From NCBI GenBank assembly GCA_002840895.1, contig PHCZ01000003.1:124001-188000 (forward strand): a DNA stretch of 64,000 nt, in the 5' to 3' direction. This DNA is from Bacteroidetes bacterium HGW-Bacteroidetes-8 (GTDB lineage: Bacteria; Bacteroidota; Bacteroidia; Bacteroidales; UBA932). The translations under genes and the position numbers were made by a program. Position 1 is the stretch's first letter, and every line of letters begins with the position of its first letter. The notes beneath the pieces were generated by a model. The model saw only the letters and a program-made list of their open reading frames with translations. It was not told the DNA's origin and made no database searches. This document shows positions 18,799 to 48,380 of the stretch, in pieces.

Positions 18799-18979
18799 AT
18801 TCTACCAATATTTTATATCTCCGCTTAAGCCCCAAAGTTGCAGATACACTCCAACCTGCTCTGCATACTCACTTGAGGCGATAAAGAGGCACGGCCCAAT
18901 AAAGGGCCTATGGCTTGCCATTAAAAGAGTGTTGAGTTGTAATCCTTGGGGTGGAAGTGGCTACGATCCGGTTCCCTGA
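18731..18979 (+). CDS. yidD: Membrane protein insertion efficiency factor YidD
   Basis: 82 residues. Typical YidD segments are an amphipathic or hydrophobic N-terminus ([22 protein letters not shown]) and the Cys-containing core [20 protein letters not shown] followed by [24 protein letters not shown]. YidD assists YidC-dependent insertion of membrane proteins. It starts inside rnpA (68-base overlap, different frame), which suggests coupled translation. Its 3' end overlaps the convergent acyltransferase gene by 19 bases. Confidence 0.92.
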
Positions 18980-20772
18980 TTTTTATCTTCGTCCTTGAAA
19001 CCAAATCTTGCCATCACCCTCTCTATATCTGGTTCACCTTTTGCAAGGCCGGCAATCTCTTGCCTGGAGACCTCTTTAAGATCCAAAAGAACAAGTCCAT
19101 CCACACAGTAGTTAAAATCCGGGTCTACATTAAAGGTGACTATTTTACAGTTGACCTTCAAGTATTTTTTAACCAGAGTCGGTAATCTATACTCATTATT
19201 GCTCAGTCTGAGCATAAACCTGTCAAATTTCTCTATGCTATCCAGCTTATTTGCAAGCAGATGCTCCGGTGTTGTTTTAAGGTAGTCCGGGAAAAAGGGA
19301 TTTCTCGGGGTTACATACTTCTCCAAATCTCCGGCAGAGTGCTGCTCTTTAAGGTAATAGATCATCAAGCTTCTGTAGAACTTTGGATACCAAGAACTTA
19401 TGCTCACAGGGCCCAGTAGATATCTCACTTCACTATTATTAATTACCGAATAGAAAAGCCCTTTCATTAAAAGAACAAGGGGAAGAGCCTCCTTTTGATA
19501 GTCCAGGACCACAAAAGAGCGTCCCAGCTCCATAGAACTATTGAGTATCTTTTCAAATGGTTTTTCATAGTTGAAAAGAGTTTGAGTGTAAAAACCCTTA
19601 ACCCCTTTTGCCTTCATTATCTCACTGCCAAAACCTAACCTGTAAGCTCCCACTAGTCTGGTTTTTTGTTTATCCCACAAAATCAGATGTTTGTAGTATT
19701 CGTCATACTCATCTAAATCCAGAGGTCGACCGGTTCCCTCTCCTACAGCCCTGAATGCCTCCTCTCTACGTCTGCCCAGTTCGTGCATCATAAGAGGGAT
19801 GGATTTGGAGTCTGTTATGTAACAACTATAATGTCCTGTTGTAAAGAGTAGTTTATCCGGAGAGAGGGCGTTGATCTCTTTTTGCATTGCTCTCCTGTTT
19901 TTAGGGAGAGCTATAGGGACTGTATTTACAAGTACCTCCTGTTTTTTAACCTGAGGAAGATTGGCCTCCATTGCATAGCATCTTGCTCTCAAACACATTC
20001 CCAAGTCATTAAGAGATTCGAACTCACCAATCTCAGCTGTAGAGACTGCCCTGCCTATTGACATTTTTATGCACTTATTCTGTTTGTTGAAAAGTTCACC
20101 GGGTAGCCTGGCAGTTCGCAGCATTGGGTGAATCTTGCCTATCCAGTGAAAAAAATTGGAGTTTGACCCGTGAAAATATACCGGCACAACTGGAACATTT
20201 GCACTTTTAATAAGCTTGATCATTGTTGGAGACCAGGTTTTGTCTCTAATAACAGACGTCCCATATGTGGTAGAAACCTCTCCGGCGGGGAATAGTGCAA
20301 GAGAACCACCACTGCGTAGAGAGTCCAAAGCGGCCCTTAGTCCGGTAAAGCTGCTTGCAAGGTTCGGATTATCCGAAAATGGATTTACAGGTAAGAAAAA
20401 CTCGTTGATATTGGGAACCTGAAGAAGGATAAAGTTTGATACCGATTTTATCTCCGGCCTGACAGAACTAAAAATATGCAACAAAATTATTCCGTCAACT
20501 GCTCCATAGGGGTGGTTTGAGACAACAATAAAAGGTCCCTCCTGGGGTATATGTTCCAACTCTTTCTCATTAATATCAAATGAGATATTGAAATCTTTAA
20601 GGATTGCCCCTGTAAAATCTCTTCCTGTAAAATGAGATAGCCGGGCATATCTTTTATTCACTCTATTAAGACCAATTATGGCCATAATAAGTGAAGCCAG
20701 GATATCTCCCAAAAAACCGCGGAGCTTAAATGCCTTTTTAACTTCCGCTGTGGACACCAATTTGTTTACCAT
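18961..20772 (-). CDS. Bifunctional aminolipid acyltransferase (OlsF/GlsB-GlsA-like fusion)
   Basis: 603 residues with two domains. The N-terminal part (about 50-265) is an LPLAT-type acyltransferase with [14 protein letters not shown] at about 84-97 (the NHPxGxxDG form of the acyltransferase motif) and LFPAGEVS at about 160-167. The C-terminal part (about 300-580) looks like an OlsB-type N-acyltransferase of the GNAT fold ([45 protein letters not shown]). Together they would N-acylate and then O-acylate an amino acid to make glycine- or ornithine-type lipids. In B. thetaiotaomicron these steps are encoded by separate glsB and glsA genes. The substrate here is inferred, not shown. Confidence 0.8.
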
Positions 20773-20833: not shown

Positions 20834-22657
20834 ATGAATGAGGGCACTTCTCTTAAAGCAGCAATCAAAGAGAGAGTTAAATTGTTACCCCTCTCACCCG
20901 GAGTCTATCGATTTCTCAACAAAGAGGGGGTAATAATCTATATTGGTAAGGCCAAAAACCTTAGAGCCCGAGTATCTCAATACTTTCATACCGAGGAGAG
21001 TCTTAGTGCAAAAACCAGAGTTATGGTTTCTAAGATTGCTGATTATCAATATACTGTTGTAGAGAACGAAGATGATGCTCTCCTACTTGAGAACAATCTC
21101 ATTAAAGAGTTTCTTCCGCGTTACAACGTTATGCTAAAAGACGGGAAAACATATCCGTGGATCTGCATAAAAAATGAAGAGTTTCCAAGAGTATATATTA
21201 CCAGAAGAAATATTAGAGATGGTTCTAAATACTTTGGACCATACAGTGCTGCCAACCAGGCTCATAATCTTATAGAGCTGATTTCTGCTCTCTATTATAT
21301 TAGAGACTGTAAGCTTACCCTTGATAATTATAACATTGAACGAAATAGGTATCGTCCCTGTCTCAAATTTCACATTGGAAAGTGTAAAGCTCCCTGCATA
21401 GGAAGGTTTTCACAAAAAGAGTACGACGAACAGATAGATAAAATCTCCTCTCTGCTCAAAGGAGACAGCTCTGCCCTAATTCGTGACTTCCGCGAAAAGA
21501 TGCTCAAAGCCTCATCTGAACTCCGTTTTGAGGAGGCTCATCAATATAAGGAGAAGATAGATCTTATCTCTTCTCATAATAGTAAGTCTGTAATTGTGAA
21601 TCAGAATATTACTGATGTAGACACCTTTTCTCTGGTGTTCGAGAACAATATCGCATTCGGTAACTATATCCGGATTATAAAAGGCAGTATAATTCAGTCT
21701 CTTAACATTGAACTCAAGATCCCAATAGAAGAGAGTCGCGAAACGATAATGACTCTCTTTATAACAGAGATGCACTCTAAATTCGGAGATAACTCCGGCG
21801 AGATTGTCGTGCCGTTTTATCCTGATGCAGAGACCCTAAAAAAGCGATGCCACATTCCTCTTCGGGGAGACAAGCTCACCCTGCTTAACCTGAGCAGTAA
21901 AAATGCTCTGATACTTAAGAGAGAGAGACTTAAACAGGAGGAGACACTCCGGCCACAAGAGCATCAGGAGAGAGTTCTGGAGAGCATCAAAAGAGATCTC
22001 AACCTAAAAGAGGCTCCCTCCCATATAGAGTGTTTCGACAACTCAAATATTCAGGGAAAATTTGCTGTGGCAGCCTGTGTGGTATTCAAGAACGGCCTGC
22101 CGAGTAAGAAGGATTACAGACACTTTAACATCAAACGCGTAGTTGGGGCAAATGATTTTGCAACTATGAAGGAGGTTGTAAATCGAAGGTACTCAAGGAC
22201 CATCTCCGAAGGGGGAGAGTTACCTCAGCTGGTTATAGTGGATGGCGGACGAGGACAGCTCAACTTTGCCTGGGAGGCGCTTAGAGAGCTTGGTTTACAC
22301 GAGAGCATAAAGATAGTTGGTATTGCAAAAAGGCTTGAGGAGCTTATTGTTCCCGGGGATCCTCACCCTCTCTTTCTGGATAAGAACTCCGTGACACTAA
22401 GGGTAATAATGCATCTTAGGGACGAGGCTCACCGGTTTGGGATAACTCATCACCGAAACAAAAGAAGTAAGGAGCAGATCGTTTCCGAACTGCGTCAAGT
22501 GAAGGGAATTGGAGCGAAAAGTGAACAGAAGCTGCTTCAGAAATATAAGAGTCTTACCGGGATAAAAAGAGCCTCCTATAAAGAGATCTGCGACACACTC
22601 GGGGTTAGAGCTGCAGATTCTCTTTTTGAGTATTTTGGGATAGCCTCAGCCAGGTAA
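20834..22657 (+). CDS. uvrC: Excinuclease ABC subunit C
   Basis: 607 residues from the ATG at 20834 (MNEGTSLKAAIKERV). The upstream in-frame extension runs back through the divergent promoter and is rejected. Domains: GIY-YIG nuclease at about 16-100 (PGVYRFLNKEGVIIYIGKAKNL), a Cys-containing segment (CLKFHIGKCKAPCIG), UVR motif near 205-240, RNase H-like nuclease domain (ECFDNSNIQGKFAVAACVVF, LVIVDGGRGQLNFA) and a C-terminal helix-hairpin-helix (LRQVKGIGAKSEQKLLQKY). It makes the dual incisions in nucleotide excision repair with UvrA and UvrB. Its last 53 bases overlap pnuC on the other strand. Confidence 0.97.
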   Translation: MNEGTSLKAAIKERVKLLPLSPGVYRFLNKEGVIIYIGKAKNLRARVSQYFHTEESLSAKTRVMVSKIADYQYTVVENEDDALLLENNLIKEFLPRYNVMLKDGKTYPWICIKNEEFPRVYITRRNIRDGSKYFGPYSAANQAHNLIELISALYYIRDCKLTLDNYNIERNRYRPCLKFHIGKCKAPCIGRFSQKEYDEQIDKISSLLKGDSSALIRDFREKMLKASSELRFEEAHQYKEKIDLISSHNSKSVIVNQNITDVDTFSLVFENNIAFGNYIRIIKGSIIQSLNIELKIPIEESRETIMTLFITEMHSKFGDNSGEIVVPFYPDAETLKKRCHIPLRGDKLTLLNLSSKNALILKRERLKQEETLRPQEHQERVLESIKRDLNLKEAPSHIECFDNSNIQGKFAVAACVVFKNGLPSKKDYRHFNIKRVVGANDFATMKEVVNRRYSRTISEGGELPQLVIVDGGRGQLNFAWEALRELGLHESIKIVGIAKRLEELIVPGDPHPLFLDKNSVTLRVIMHLRDEAHRFGITHHRNKRSKEQIVSELRQVKGIGAKSEQKLLQKYKSLTGIKRASYKEICDTLGVRAADSLFEYFGIASAR

Positions 22658-23312
22658 CCCATCCATTAAGAGAGTTTGCAAGATAGAATATCCACATCAG
22701 AATCATAAGTGCCGAGTGCGACTCTCCATTTGAAAGGGCAATAATCCACATTGTTACGCTAATCAGGTTAACAATCACCCAAAGTACCCACTGCTCCAAA
22801 AACCTTCTTACCATTAAAAACATAGCAATAATTGAGAGTACTGTTGTTGCAGAGTCTTTAAGAGGCTGGGGATCTTTAAAATAGTGAAGAGCAAATGCAA
22901 CCAACACGGTAATCACTATACTAAAAAGAGCAAGTGCGACTCTCTCTTTTGCCCTCATCCTTCTTGCCACAATGGTAACAGACTCCTCTTCTCTCCGGCG
23001 GCCTATCCAGCTATACCAGCCAATAAACTGCATAGGAAAGTAGTATAAGGCATTAAGGGCAGCATCTCCATAAAGACCGGCCTTGAACGAGATCCAGGCA
23101 TAAAGCGAGACATTGATAATTCCAAAGAGGTAATTGAATATATTTCCTCTGGCAACCAGCACCACACAAACAACTCCCGTAACAGCCGCCAGAGAACCAA
23201 TAACATCCAACTCCTGTTCCAGAATTGCATAGAGGAAGTTTACAAGTATTATCCCGCCAATTAGCAGCCAGTCAAAAGGTTTTAGCGTGTTTATGTGTTT
23301 AAATGTTACCAT
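22605..23312 (-). CDS. pnuC: PnuC-family vitamin-precursor transporter (copy 1)
   Basis: 235 residues with about seven membrane segments. PnuC features include NYLFGIINVSLYAWISFKAGLYGDAALNALYYFPMQFIGWYSW (about 58-100), QWVLWVIVNLISVTMWI (about 168-184) and FYLANSLNGWVTW (about 210-222). These match nicotinamide riboside transporters. The relative PnuT carries thiamine, and substrate cannot be settled from sequence alone. The start lies one base after the stop of the gluzincin-type surface protein gene, so the two share a transcript. The 3' end overlaps uvrC by 53 bases, which is unusually long for a convergent pair. A second pnuC is at 47727-48380. Confidence 0.88.
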   Translation of the reverse strand: MVTFKHINTLKPFDWLLIGGIILVNFLYAILEQELDVIGSLAAVTGVVCVVLVARGNIFNYLFGIINVSLYAWISFKAGLYGDAALNALYYFPMQFIGWYSWIGRRREEESVTIVARRMRAKERVALALFSIVITVLVAFALHYFKDPQPLKDSATTVLSIIAMFLMVRRFLEQWVLWVIVNLISVTMWIIALSNGESHSALMILMWIFYLANSLNGWVTWLRLSQNTQKENLQL

Positions 23313-23313
23313 T

Positions 23314-26205
23314 TTAAAGTGGTGTCTGAAATAAAAATTCCGTAAAATATTTTTTCTCTCCTGTTACCCCTAACCTAATACCTGCTGTGAGTGGGTATGA
23401 AATTCCTATTAGGTTCAAGTCCAGTAAGAGATCGCTCCCAAGGGAGAAGAGGTTCTCTACTTGATTGACTCCACCGTTGCGGAAAAAATGAACAAAAGGA
23501 ATCATTTGAACTCTCTTGATATAGAGAAGTGTGGAGAGAGAGATGTCTCTCATCAACAAAGGGAGAGCATACTCAAATTTTAAAGATGCAGCCCATCGGC
23601 TGAATCTCTGTTCGTAGCCATCCGGAAAGGAGATGGAGTTTGTCATCAGGTAGTTCTTCCCCTCAAAAAATTGTTTCTGGAAAGCTCCTGCTATCTTAAT
23701 GCCGTGATTAGGTATCAAACCCGGAAGATAACCGTATACAGATGAATATATAAGAGAGCCGTAATTCTCTCCCGCAAAAGGGACAGCCGAGAACTGTATA
23801 TTTGTTCCTATCCCATATCTGGGAAAGATATCCCTGACAGCGAGGTTTAGTATTTTATAGAGGCTTACCCCGAGATTTATATACTGATAGTTTGATAGCC
23901 GGCCATTTTTGTAGGAGAAAAAGGAGTCGTTGGTATAACGCCATAACACCCTTGGAACGACACCGCTGCTCCACCCTCCACTACCGTAGTGTAGCGGAAG
24001 ATATACCATAAGTTGGGTACTTATGAATGGAGATCCGGATATTGTGTCTCTCTTTTGAACCGGTTCTTCATCGGTCAAAGTGACTAACCTGTTGTTATAT
24101 CTGTCTCTGTCGTTAAAGTCAGCCTTGATGTCAATCACAGGAAAGAGTCCTCTGTATGTAAACTTCAGGTGTCCGGAGTGAAAACCCTTCCTCCAGGAGT
24201 ATCCGGCCAAAGTATTTGCAGTGCTAAGTGTATTCTGTGAGTAAATTATAAATCCCGGAGAGACCAGGTCATAAACACTCTCGTATGTGAGATTTTTAAT
24301 GTTATCAATATTATAATAGACCGGCGCCCAGGAGTGAATTCTAAAGAGGTTTTTTACTTTACTATACGGGTTAGACTCATATTGAGGGTTGTCCGGCACC
24401 CTAACGGTATCTGTATTAAAGCCTGCTCCCAGACTTAGATACTCTGCAATATCATCCCTCTTTGGCAGAGAGAAGTTAGAGCTTCTCCACAACATTGAGT
24501 CTTCACTTGCCTTAACTATATTATATCCGCCGTAAGCAAAGTCAGAGTAATAAAAGAGAGACGAATCTCTGACCAACGATAGTGATGAGACACCAAATCT
24601 TGAGTTTGTAAGCTGCCTTAGATCTTTAAGTTCGGGGTTATAGGAATATACATTGTTATTGCCGTTAAGGTCCGATACAAACCATATATCATCTCCCTTT
24701 ACCCTGAGGTTGCTCAAATATTTGGACTGCTCTTCAATCTCTCTCTTCCACAAATCCAATCTCCTGTCATATGAGAATAGCCCCATACCCTTTTCGGTTA
24801 TGACCGTTGCAAAGAGCCCCCCTTTAATCTGTACCACCTCTTTGAATTGACCCCTCTGAGGAGAAGATATCTTACCAATATTGCTGAAATCATCCCCACG
24901 CAATAACAATATCTCGGATGAGCCCTCAACAGGATAACTTATAACCATTACTGTGTCGCCATTCTGCGAGAAGTGCAAATTATAAAAGCTCTCGCCCTTT
25001 GTGTGTCTGTTCGTTTTCCCAGATTTAATATCATAGGAGTAGATCTCTGAGAAGTTCTCCAGCTCCCATCTGCCAGATTGAACAAATTCAGTCCAATAGA
25101 GTTTATCTCCAAAAATGGTCAAAGGTGAACTTATCCTTCCCATATGTCGCAAGAGTCTCTCTTGACCCTCCTGTGAAATGGCAACTAACCTTTTAATCTG
25201 TTTGAGTCCCGACTTAACTGCAAACACTGTATCGCCTGAATATGGTAGCGGATAGAGATATGAGGTGTAGTCGCTATTCTTATTGTTTATTGCCCTATAT
25301 GGCGTGAAAGGGATCCTGGCAGAGTCCTCTCTTCTCCACTTTTGTGTCATCACCCTCTTTAATTCACGGAAGTTCTCTTTTTTTGATAGTGAGGTTGTTT
25401 TTTTATAAGCTTTATTGTCGGCAGATATATCATAAAATCTTGAGATAAGATAGTCGGTTGCCTCGCCCATATAGTTATAATTTGATGAGTTAAAACGGAC
25501 AAAAGAGCAAAACATATACCCGAAGCTATAAACATCAGGAACATAGTTTTTATAGGAACCCATTGTCCATTTATCCCAGTTCCTGTAATCGCCCTCCAGA
25601 AATGCAGCCCTGTAATAGATCAGGTGGTCCGGGTCTCTTCCTCTCCCGGCAGAGGTAAGCTCTGTCTCCGTAACAACGGCATCTCCCTCCAGCTTCCATC
25701 TGCTCATTAACACCCCAACCCCCAGAGCAGTTGCCTGCTCGCCCAACAACCAGCTCAATGGTTTGAATATCCCCTTTTCAAATTTTGAAACGTGGCCGGT
25801 ATGCCTCATTTCGTGAATTACCAGATGTTTCTCCCAGTTGTGAGAGTAGTCGTTATTTGCGGGAGGACGCGTTATAAGCTCCATCCTCTTTGGTGCCACC
25901 CCAACCATTCCGTTACTTGCAGAGCTAAAAGGGTGAAGTACCACATCCATCTTTTTTGGATCTGTCTTTAGCGAAGCCAAAACAGGTTCCCTTAATCTCT
26001 CCAGAAGAAATAGATAGCGTTTAGCAAGGGAGTCAATCTGCTCGGGATATATAACTTTGAAATTCTCTGTCTCAATAGACCTCCATTTAGCTCTTGACGG
26101 GTCTGTACCCAGACTGTAGAATTGGGCAAAAGAGATTTTTGTTACGAAAATGTTAATCAGAAGCAAAAGTAAAAAAAATTTATGCTCTACCCTGTAAGTG
26201 CTCAT
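23314..26205 (-). CDS. Outer-membrane protein: gluzincin-like domain, TolB-like propeller, beta-barrel
   Basis: 963 residues. A signal peptide (about 1-27, ending SFAQ) is followed by a metallopeptidase-like domain: HEMRH at 131-135 is an HExxH zinc motif, and WKLEGDAVVTE (170-180) supplies a possible third ligand Glu in the pattern of peptidase-MA/M61-type gluzincins. Residues about 310-620 show repeated short blades of the TolB/PD40 propeller kind (SYDIKSGKTNRHT, SYNPELKDLRQLTNS). From about 640 the sequence alternates like an outer-membrane barrel (surface-antigen type). Function is unknown: it may be a surface protease, or the zincin may be structural. It shares an operon with pnuC. Confidence 0.72.
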   Translation of the reverse strand: MSTYRVEHKFFLLLLLINIFVTKISFAQFYSLGTDPSRAKWRSIETENFKVIYPEQIDSLAKRYLFLLERLREPVLASLKTDPKKMDVVLHPFSSASNGMVGVAPKRMELITRPPANNDYSHNWEKHLVIHEMRHTGHVSKFEKGIFKPLSWLLGEQATALGVGVLMSRWKLEGDAVVTETELTSAGRGRDPDHLIYYRAAFLEGDYRNWDKWTMGSYKNYVPDVYSFGYMFCSFVRFNSSNYNYMGEATDYLISRFYDISADNKAYKKTTSLSKKENFRELKRVMTQKWRREDSARIPFTPYRAINNKNSDYTSYLYPLPYSGDTVFAVKSGLKQIKRLVAISQEGQERLLRHMGRISSPLTIFGDKLYWTEFVQSGRWELENFSEIYSYDIKSGKTNRHTKGESFYNLHFSQNGDTVMVISYPVEGSSEILLLRGDDFSNIGKISSPQRGQFKEVVQIKGGLFATVITEKGMGLFSYDRRLDLWKREIEEQSKYLSNLRVKGDDIWFVSDLNGNNNVYSYNPELKDLRQLTNSRFGVSSLSLVRDSSLFYYSDFAYGGYNIVKASEDSMLWRSSNFSLPKRDDIAEYLSLGAGFNTDTVRVPDNPQYESNPYSKVKNLFRIHSWAPVYYNIDNIKNLTYESVYDLVSPGFIIYSQNTLSTANTLAGYSWRKGFHSGHLKFTYRGLFPVIDIKADFNDRDRYNNRLVTLTDEEPVQKRDTISGSPFISTQLMVYLPLHYGSGGWSSGVVPRVLWRYTNDSFFSYKNGRLSNYQYINLGVSLYKILNLAVRDIFPRYGIGTNIQFSAVPFAGENYGSLIYSSVYGYLPGLIPNHGIKIAGAFQKQFFEGKNYLMTNSISFPDGYEQRFSRWAASLKFEYALPLLMRDISLSTLLYIKRVQMIPFVHFFRNGGVNQVENLFSLGSDLLLDLNLIGISYPLTAGIRLGVTGEKKYFTEFLFQTPL

Positions 26206-47726: not shown

Positions 47727-48380
47727 TTAATTGTTATCTCTCCACTGCTTTCTCCACATTGTAAATCCAAAAAACGCCAACACAAGATAGCCTGCGCTTA
47801 CCATTGGCAGGAAAACCATTCCCGCTAAAATATAGAGTGTGATATTTGTAACATTAACTGTAAACCACGCTGCCCAACACTCAAGTTTTTTCTGGGCAGA
47901 GAGGTATTGTGCGGTTAAAATTGCCATAGTGACAAACGCATCCAAAAAAGGTCTCTGTGCCTGAGAGAAGATTGATGGAAAGAGATCGTCAATATAGGTA
48001 AGGACAAAGCCCCACACTGCGGCAAGCACAAATAGCTGAACAACAAAGTAAACCCTCTTGCTGTTGCTCATAAGTGTCACCTTTAGCTGATGGATACTGT
48101 TCTCCTCGCCGCTTCTTGGATGTGTCCATCTATAGTGTCCGTAAAAATTTATTATAAAAGAGACCGGCTGAACCAGCATACTGGAGTATAGCCCCTTCTG
48201 ATAAAACAGAATAAAGAGCAGGATATTGTAAAGATATCCCATCCAAAAATTGGCAACCTTTGCCCTGGTGGCAAGATAGACACAGGTGAGTCCCGAGGCC
48301 ACAGATAGAATCTCAATAAGAGATACCCCCTGACCTGCTATAGAAAATATTATATTGTCCGTACTAAAAAGCTCAAGCAT
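47727..48380 (-). CDS. pnuC: PnuC-family transporter (copy 2), inside the suf cluster
   Basis: 217 residues with about seven membrane segments. PnuC-like regions: VANFWMGYLYNILLFILFYQKGLYSSMLVQPVSFIINFYGHYRW (about 42-85) and ECWAAWFTVNVTNITLYILAG (about 167-187). The last segment reads YLVLAFFGFTMWRKQW, which lacks the NSxxGxxxW form seen in copy 1 (22605-23312). The two therefore may differ in substrate (nicotinamide riboside, thiamine or another vitamin precursor). It lies 29 bp after sufB and 19 bp before sufC on the same strand. Confidence 0.83.
   Translation of the reverse strand: MLELFSTDNIIFSIAGQGVSLIEILSVASGLTCVYLATRAKVANFWMGYLYNILLFILFYQKGLYSSMLVQPVSFIINFYGHYRWTHPRSGEENSIHQLKVTLMSNSKRVYFVVQLFVLAAVWGFVLTYIDDLFPSIFSQAQRPFLDAFVTMAILTAQYLSAQKKLECWAAWFTVNVTNITLYILAGMVFLPMVSAGYLVLAFFGFTMWRKQWRDNN

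Follow-up and report, generated by a model that had tools for sequence, protein, structure and literature searches.

A Bacteroidota gene predicted to join a gluzincin-like peptidase domain, a TolB-like propeller and an Omp85-like barrel on one chain

Propeller-bearing and enzyme-bearing kinds of Omp85 protein are already published. The WD40-Omp85 subfamily, whose nearest propeller is TolB, was proposed in 2014 to represent a BamA-BamB fusion (PMC4104836); there, as in the protein described here, a propeller lies N-terminal to an Omp85-type barrel and TolB is closest in both, whereas the propeller is the only N-terminal domain described for that class and the word 'peptidase' is absent from the main text of the paper. 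The same paper names a 'Metallo' subfamily, called Omp85-metalloprotease, for which periplasmic quality control or surface virulence was proposed; its passages on this subfamily define it by PF00149 and mention no propeller (PMC4104836), while our protein has no PF00149 match. PlpD, the patatin-Omp85 of Pseudomonas aeruginosa, likewise carries an enzyme N-terminal to an Omp85 barrel, but is described as combining a patatin-like lipase with POTRA where our protein has a metallopeptidase-like domain and a propeller (PMC11116518). BepA of E. coli is a periplasmic Zn-metallopeptidase that acts on LptD, probably at the BAM machine, and belongs to M48 (PMC8423444), whereas our protein would represent a different gluzincin branch seated on its own barrel. 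The Bacteroidota, dominant in the gut, possess an outer membrane of unusual complexity; the machinery that assembles it was resolved only recently, and outer-membrane assembly is heavily remodelled in Flavobacterium johnsoniae of the same phylum (PMC12611786). BamP of the F. johnsoniae BAM was considered as a counterpart and dropped, being a different protein for which the main text of that paper mentions neither peptidase nor propeller (PMC12611786). In the literature searched by title and abstract opening, no description of a gluzincin-propeller-Omp85 fusion was recognised, and such a protease-propeller-barrel protein is apparently widespread yet unstudied.

The window analysed here is a 64,000-nucleotide stretch of a Bacteroidales genome (Bacteroidetes bacterium HGW-Bacteroidetes-8, contig PHCZ01000003.1). 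The features of the gene and its neighbour are as follows (coordinates in the window; alignment A1 is described below).

23314..26205, minus strand: whole gene of the gluzincin-propeller-barrel protein, 963 aa, with an ATG start and no internal stop
26122..26205, minus strand: residues 1-28, probable Sec signal peptide judged by eye, a hydrophobic N-terminus with SFAQ at its end
25306..26121, minus strand: residues 29-300, gluzincin-like metallopeptidase domain (structure model, fold and profile comparison)
25801..25815, minus strand: residues 131-135, HEMRH, with predicted zinc ligands H131 and H135 and predicted catalytic E132 (sequence, alignment)
25666..25689, minus strand: residues 173-180, EGDAVVTE, with predicted third ligand E173 and conserved E180 (sequence, alignment)
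25528..25530, minus strand: Y226 of Y-x-x-G-Y, candidate catalytic tyrosine (invariant in 33/33 rows of A1)
24490..25272, minus strand: residues 312-572, TolB/PD40-like beta-propeller (model, VIA, PD40 in relatives)
23326..24369, minus strand: residues 613-960, predicted 16-stranded, Omp85-like outer-membrane barrel (model, Foldseek and motifs, with weak profile support)
23614..23625, minus strand: residues 861-864, PDGY, in loop 6, which links strands 11 and 12 (most relatives have R-G; this copy has lost the R)
23488..23499, minus strand: residues 903-906, PFVH, strand 13 (most relatives have D at 906; this copy has lost it)
22605..23312, minus strand: pnuC-type transporter gene, one base downstream (PF04973, E 1.2e-50)

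The initial annotation had placed a signal-like N-terminus, HEMRH, EGDAVVTE, a propeller and an outer-membrane barrel on one chain, and this layout was borne out by the 963-residue frame (in which WKLEGDAVVTE translates as residues 170-180), the structure model and the fold matches. The full-chain model (pLDDT 90.5, pTM 0.88) is poor at the N-terminus (pLDDT about 39-53 over residues 1-30), and its pTM suggests that the domains are placed together. Sequence comparison returned little: a Pfam scan of the protein at E up to 10 matched no family, and a PDB sequence search with the whole chain gave fatty-acid-binding proteins alone, at E 0.36 and worse.

A protein search covering 60 genomes, the window's own among them and the rest from the same genus, family and order, found relatives in 48. 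When 198 genomes sampled from across the phylum (the window's own included) were searched by profile, 189 matched at E <= 0.001, a count of broader related propeller-barrel proteins and not of orthologues, given that only 24 of the 198 gave a strong match over the full length (about E 1e-149 or better) and the remainder were partial or much weaker. A scan of named genomes yielded at least 589 confirmed relatives among at least 596 pattern matches, of which 80 loci were kept; these relatives include proteins of Bacteroides fragilis, B. salyersiae and Parabacteroides goldsteinii. When the window genome was searched with the profile of the second of two distant clades, only the window gene was found (E 9.8e-22).

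Alignment A1 (33 rows) comprises the window protein and 32 relatives, 22-87% identical to it, which were chosen by overall homology from loci L001-L046 (L001 being the window itself); L002, L005, L006, L012, L015, L017, L020, L022, L027, L029, L044, L045 and L046 stayed out because they were not picked, truncated, split or interrupted by stops. Alignment A2 (79 rows) was fetched from the named genomes with the pattern [LFM]EGDAVx[AST]ET, so invariance across its EGDA motif is by selection and is left uncounted; L087 and L120 of the 80 loci were omitted, A3 additionally lacks L121, and A6 holds 35 of the 79 rows. Of the distant loci L151-L174 (24 in all), A4 aligns 10 and A5 aligns 11, while L156, L161 and L168 are unaligned but carry the motif. 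Median pairwise identity in A1 is 0.349 for the gluzincin domain, 0.255 for the propeller and 0.292 for the barrel, making the first domain, by alignment, the most conserved part of the chain. Two adjoining family frames, apparent tandem duplicates, were seen at L103, L107, L112, L119, L120 and L124 (the second being short in L120), and the gene copy at L087 and L027, which by their length are one contig, is broken by stop codons.

The residues on which a peptidase reading turns are strictly kept. H131, E132, R134, H135, E173, D175, A176, E180, Y226 and G229 are invariant in 33/33 rows of A1, a set that includes the four residues (H131, H135, E173, E180) whose lack of conservation had been named as a possible refutation, and H131, E132, H135 and Y226, which lie outside the selection pattern, are kept in 79/79 rows of A2. 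Shuffling the protein 20000 times produced HExxH 290 times, and only 15 times an HExxH with E-x6-E 20-60 residues after it; because the motifs are rare in shuffles and their residues invariant throughout A1, the pair is judged, from sequence, to be more than chance. Across the phylum, HExRH-EGDA-Y-x-x-G is present in 24/24 of loci L127-L150 from the profile search (window included, with L140 read as a whole frame), and HExxH then EG-x-A in 24/24 of the more distant loci L151-L174, where the strict pattern including the Tyr motif holds in 23/24 and the remaining locus, L172, shows Y-x-x-G in A5; among the 10 and 11 distant loci aligned, none departs from HExxH, EG-x-A or Y-x-x-G. In pairwise profile comparison these distant clades match the window clade at E 3e-12 (probability 97.6%) and 5e-29 (99.8%). 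We take E173 to be the likelier third zinc ligand, by analogy of EG-x-A with M1, and E180 to be a conserved second Glu, and we equate Y226 with the gluzincin Tyr by its motif. Since the catalytic set is invariant, a pseudoenzyme reading is given low weight.

The fold agrees with the motifs. In the full model HExxH lies within helix 124-141 and E173 within helix 169-183, so that the gluzincin order of HExxH and Glu proposed from the sequence is kept in the helices as well as in all 33 rows. Folded alone (pLDDT 89.7) and superposed on gluzincins, the first domain matched lugdulysin of M30 best in VIA (7bb8, Z 15.1, rmsd 3.6 over 225 residues), with M1 and M9 proteins next at about Z 11-12; the 50 VIA matches listed for it comprise M30, M1 and M9 peptidases, leukotriene A4 hydrolases and a single TFIID entry. 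The check proposed in the initial annotation, whether H131, H135 and a Glu come together, is answered by this superposition only indirectly. Foldseek placed M9 collagenases on top for the isolated domain, followed by M1 and M61, with a best E of 4.2e-4, a TM of about 0.5 and only 2/326 matches at E <= 0.001. These models support a zinc-peptidase-like domain of gluzincin fold and motif order, for which zinc binding and activity are predicted.

Profile models recognise the domain chiefly in distant relatives. The window protein has no match to Peptidase_MA_2 (PF13485) at E up to 10, none of the 33 rows of A1 matches the Peptidase_MA_2 or Omp85 Pfam models at E up to 1, and a PDB search with the first-domain profile at E up to 10 found nothing; one A1 row weakly matches DUF2268, a predicted Zn protease family (E 0.0034). 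PF00149, the 'Metallo' family, is presumably a metallophosphatase and not a gluzincin family. Peptidase_MA_2 is matched at E < 1e-5 by 5 of 9 scanned distant relatives, and L165, alone among the nine, passes its cut-off (33.2 vs 32.4); L165 also passes those for PD40 and Omp85 (33.7 vs 24), and is the one distant relative in which the domain combination is visible to Pfam. With Peptidase_MA_2 and the gluzincins of M1, M9, M30 and M61 our protein has in common the fold, HExxH, a third Glu in EG-x-A and the conserved Tyr; unlike those families, the window clade has HExRH with EGDA and GRGR. GAMEN is the exopeptidase-type motif of M1 aminopeptidases. No GAMEN-type motif is present in the window protein, where SNGMVGVAPKRMELIT stands before HExxH (the E109 position is Glu in 27/33 rows of A1), and the protein further differs from known gluzincins in lacking a Pfam match and in being joined to a propeller and a barrel.

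The VIA matches of the full model cover chiefly the propeller, with TolB matches over about residues 306-572 at Z about 20. Of the TolB/PD40-like blades first read from the sequence, the TolB fold stands; PD40 itself has matches (E up to 1) in 10/33 rows of A1 but none in the window protein, for which NCBIfam gave a weak Dpp5 match only, on the propeller.

A C-terminal outer-membrane barrel had likewise been predicted, and DSSP of the model counts 16 strands from residue 623 to 960, a three-residue strand at 888-890 being left uncounted. TamA appears twice (ranks 10 and 41) among the 50 Foldseek matches listed for the full model, a TamA row having E 1.2e-5, TM 0.20/0.31 and rmsd 8.3; no residue range is given, and we infer that the match belongs to the barrel. 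A VRGF/Y-type loop-6 motif is named for the Omp85 superfamily (PMC12611786). At the corresponding position (RG[YF]-type) R is found in 26/33 rows of A1 and 74/79 rows of A2, and D in the window protein; at position 906 in strand 13, D is found in 26/33 rows of A1 and H in the window protein. Both residues occur together in 24/33 rows of A1, and the near relatives L003, L004, L007, L008 and L009 lack one or both. Unlike the WD40-Omp85 class, the window protein falls short of the Omp85 Pfam model (PF01103, no match at E up to 10); the eight scanned distant relatives other than L165 also have no Omp85 match at E up to 0.1, and the barrel profile matches L165's clade weakly (E 0.0013, probability 18%). 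No POTRA domain was matched by Pfam in the window protein, whose N-terminal part is the gluzincin domain and propeller. The barrel looks Omp85-like from its modelled strand count, the TamA rows of the full-chain model and the loop-6 motif of most relatives, lost in the window protein.

Even-stranded barrels, here with 16 strands, have both ends on one side of the membrane, and in those Omp85 proteins that have been studied the POTRA domains lie in the periplasm. PlpD was at first believed to display its enzyme domain, which has since been shown to be periplasmic (PMC11116518). On these three grounds the peptidase and propeller more likely lie in the periplasm than on the cell surface, and the cell-surface location given by the initial annotation, drawn there from a barrel together with a signal peptide, becomes the less likely reading.

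From the computed domain order, fold matches, catalytic invariance, strand count and family motif we infer an outer-membrane-anchored metallopeptidase that would face the periplasm, with a role likeliest in maturing outer-membrane or other envelope proteins or in their proteolytic quality control; we regard this as about evenly balanced between right and wrong. The chain would be exported by Sec and its C-terminal 16-strand Omp85-like barrel placed in the outer membrane, with the propeller below it as a docking platform like TolB or BamB. The N-terminal gluzincin domain would bind zinc on H131, H135 and E173, use E132 as base together with Tyr226, and cleave a client protein or peptide offered by the propeller or barrel. 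The logic would be comparable to that of BepA at BAM, BepA itself not being known to carry a barrel. Among the 80 named loci no constant partner gene, and no neighbour pointing to the BAM machine, was seen. The window genome also encodes an M48 protease as a separate gene, its N-terminus lipobox-like by eye, which counts against this reading. So do the missing Pfam matches, the weak barrel profile comparison with L165's clade, the poor alignment of the TamA row, the strong full-length match in only 24 of 198 genomes and the loss of the loop-6 contact in this copy.

A bolder form of this proposal, which we hold as doubtful, is that in many Bacteroidota an active metallopeptidase is joined on one chain to a BamB/TolB-like propeller and an Omp85-type barrel, as an outer-membrane assembly and quality-control machine, and that in the window's lineage the barrel, its loop-6 contact lost, now serves as a protease anchor. 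If true, a widespread envelope factor would hold on a single chain the barrel, propeller and metallopeptidase that other bacteria keep separate. A conserved single-gene protease-propeller-barrel protein with an intact-looking active site could be tested as a candidate proteolytic arm of Bacteroidota outer-membrane assembly, and would widen the enzyme-bearing Omp85-type proteins past the patatin kind.

A surface-tethered protease, in which the barrel displays the gluzincin domain and propeller outside the cell for the cleavage of external proteins, would be consistent with the signal-like N-terminus, the C-terminal barrel and the presence of secreted collagenases and lugdulysin among the fold neighbours. 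We consider it unlikely: an even strand number would keep both ends on one side with the N-terminal domains preceding an Omp85-like barrel, a similar proposal for PlpD has been overturned, its enzyme domain being periplasmic (PMC11116518), and the spread of relatives over 48/60 genomes of the genus, family and order suits a housekeeping role no less well than a surface enzyme.

Omp85-like barrel features and a TolB-like propeller, the latter found also in the published WD40-Omp85 class likened to a BamA-BamB fusion (PMC4104836), would suit an insertase or translocase whose gluzincin fold is a substrate-binding module only. This appears quite improbable, as all five catalytic-type residues (H131, E132, H135, E173 and Y226) are invariant in 33/33 rows, unlike a decayed enzyme, and the window protein has lost both the loop-6 R and the strand-13 D, a loss because of which the window copy may not act as an insertase. 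Four PF01103 places lie elsewhere in the window genome, and the window gene is therefore not the sole candidate for barrel assembly.

As had been noted, pnuC lies one base away, beginning one base after the stop codon, and from this spacing, taken by itself, a common transcript is presumed. At 25/33 loci of the window's family (L001-L032 and L045), pnuC is the next gene downstream and on the same strand, a denominator that keeps L015, L022 and L029, which end near the gene so that no neighbour could show; at L023, L028, L030, L031 and L045 no downstream pnuC was seen. The same domain order beside pnuC, which the initial annotation proposed to look for in other genomes, thus recurs within the family and at none of the 13 loci from other families of the order (0/13). 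Among the named loci pnuC follows in 13/80, but 8 of these 13 (L047-L053 and L087) sit on contigs that, by length, already carry eight of the family loci, and the two counts overlap accordingly; the remaining five are L057, L058, L060, L062 and L068. Because pnuC is kept at L058, L060 and L068 although the other surroundings are rearranged, some selection on the gene-pnuC pair within the lineage is suggested. The adjacency is lineage-limited.

That the protein is an outer-membrane partner of the adjoining PnuC-type transporter, binding or processing a vitamin precursor, is very improbable: the downstream pnuC of 25/33 family and 13/80 named loci, rearranged ones included, speaks for it, whereas the 0/13 count outside the family, the lack of any vitamin riboswitch at the Rfam gathering score in window positions 18000-50000, an intact protease site without clear use in such a role and a second pnuC elsewhere in the window speak against it. 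The initial annotation had also suggested a receptor using the zincin fold; a vitamin receptor is unlikely as well, the barrel not looking like that of a TonB-dependent receptor and pnuC adjacency being confined as described.

The second pnuC-type gene (window 47727-48380, minus strand; PF04973, E 1e-42) overlaps the frame of an ABC (SufC-like) gene downstream of it, and a SufB/D gene is close by. At 19/80 named loci a gene for a CxxC-bearing protein of roughly 220 residues follows on the same strand, either immediately or with one frame in between (L079, L080, L088, L093, L095, L105-L107, L110-L113, L115-L117, L119, L123, L124 and L126). Elsewhere in the window, a gene at 18961-20772 on the minus strand carries acyltransferase and GNAT acetyltransferase Pfam domains on one chain.
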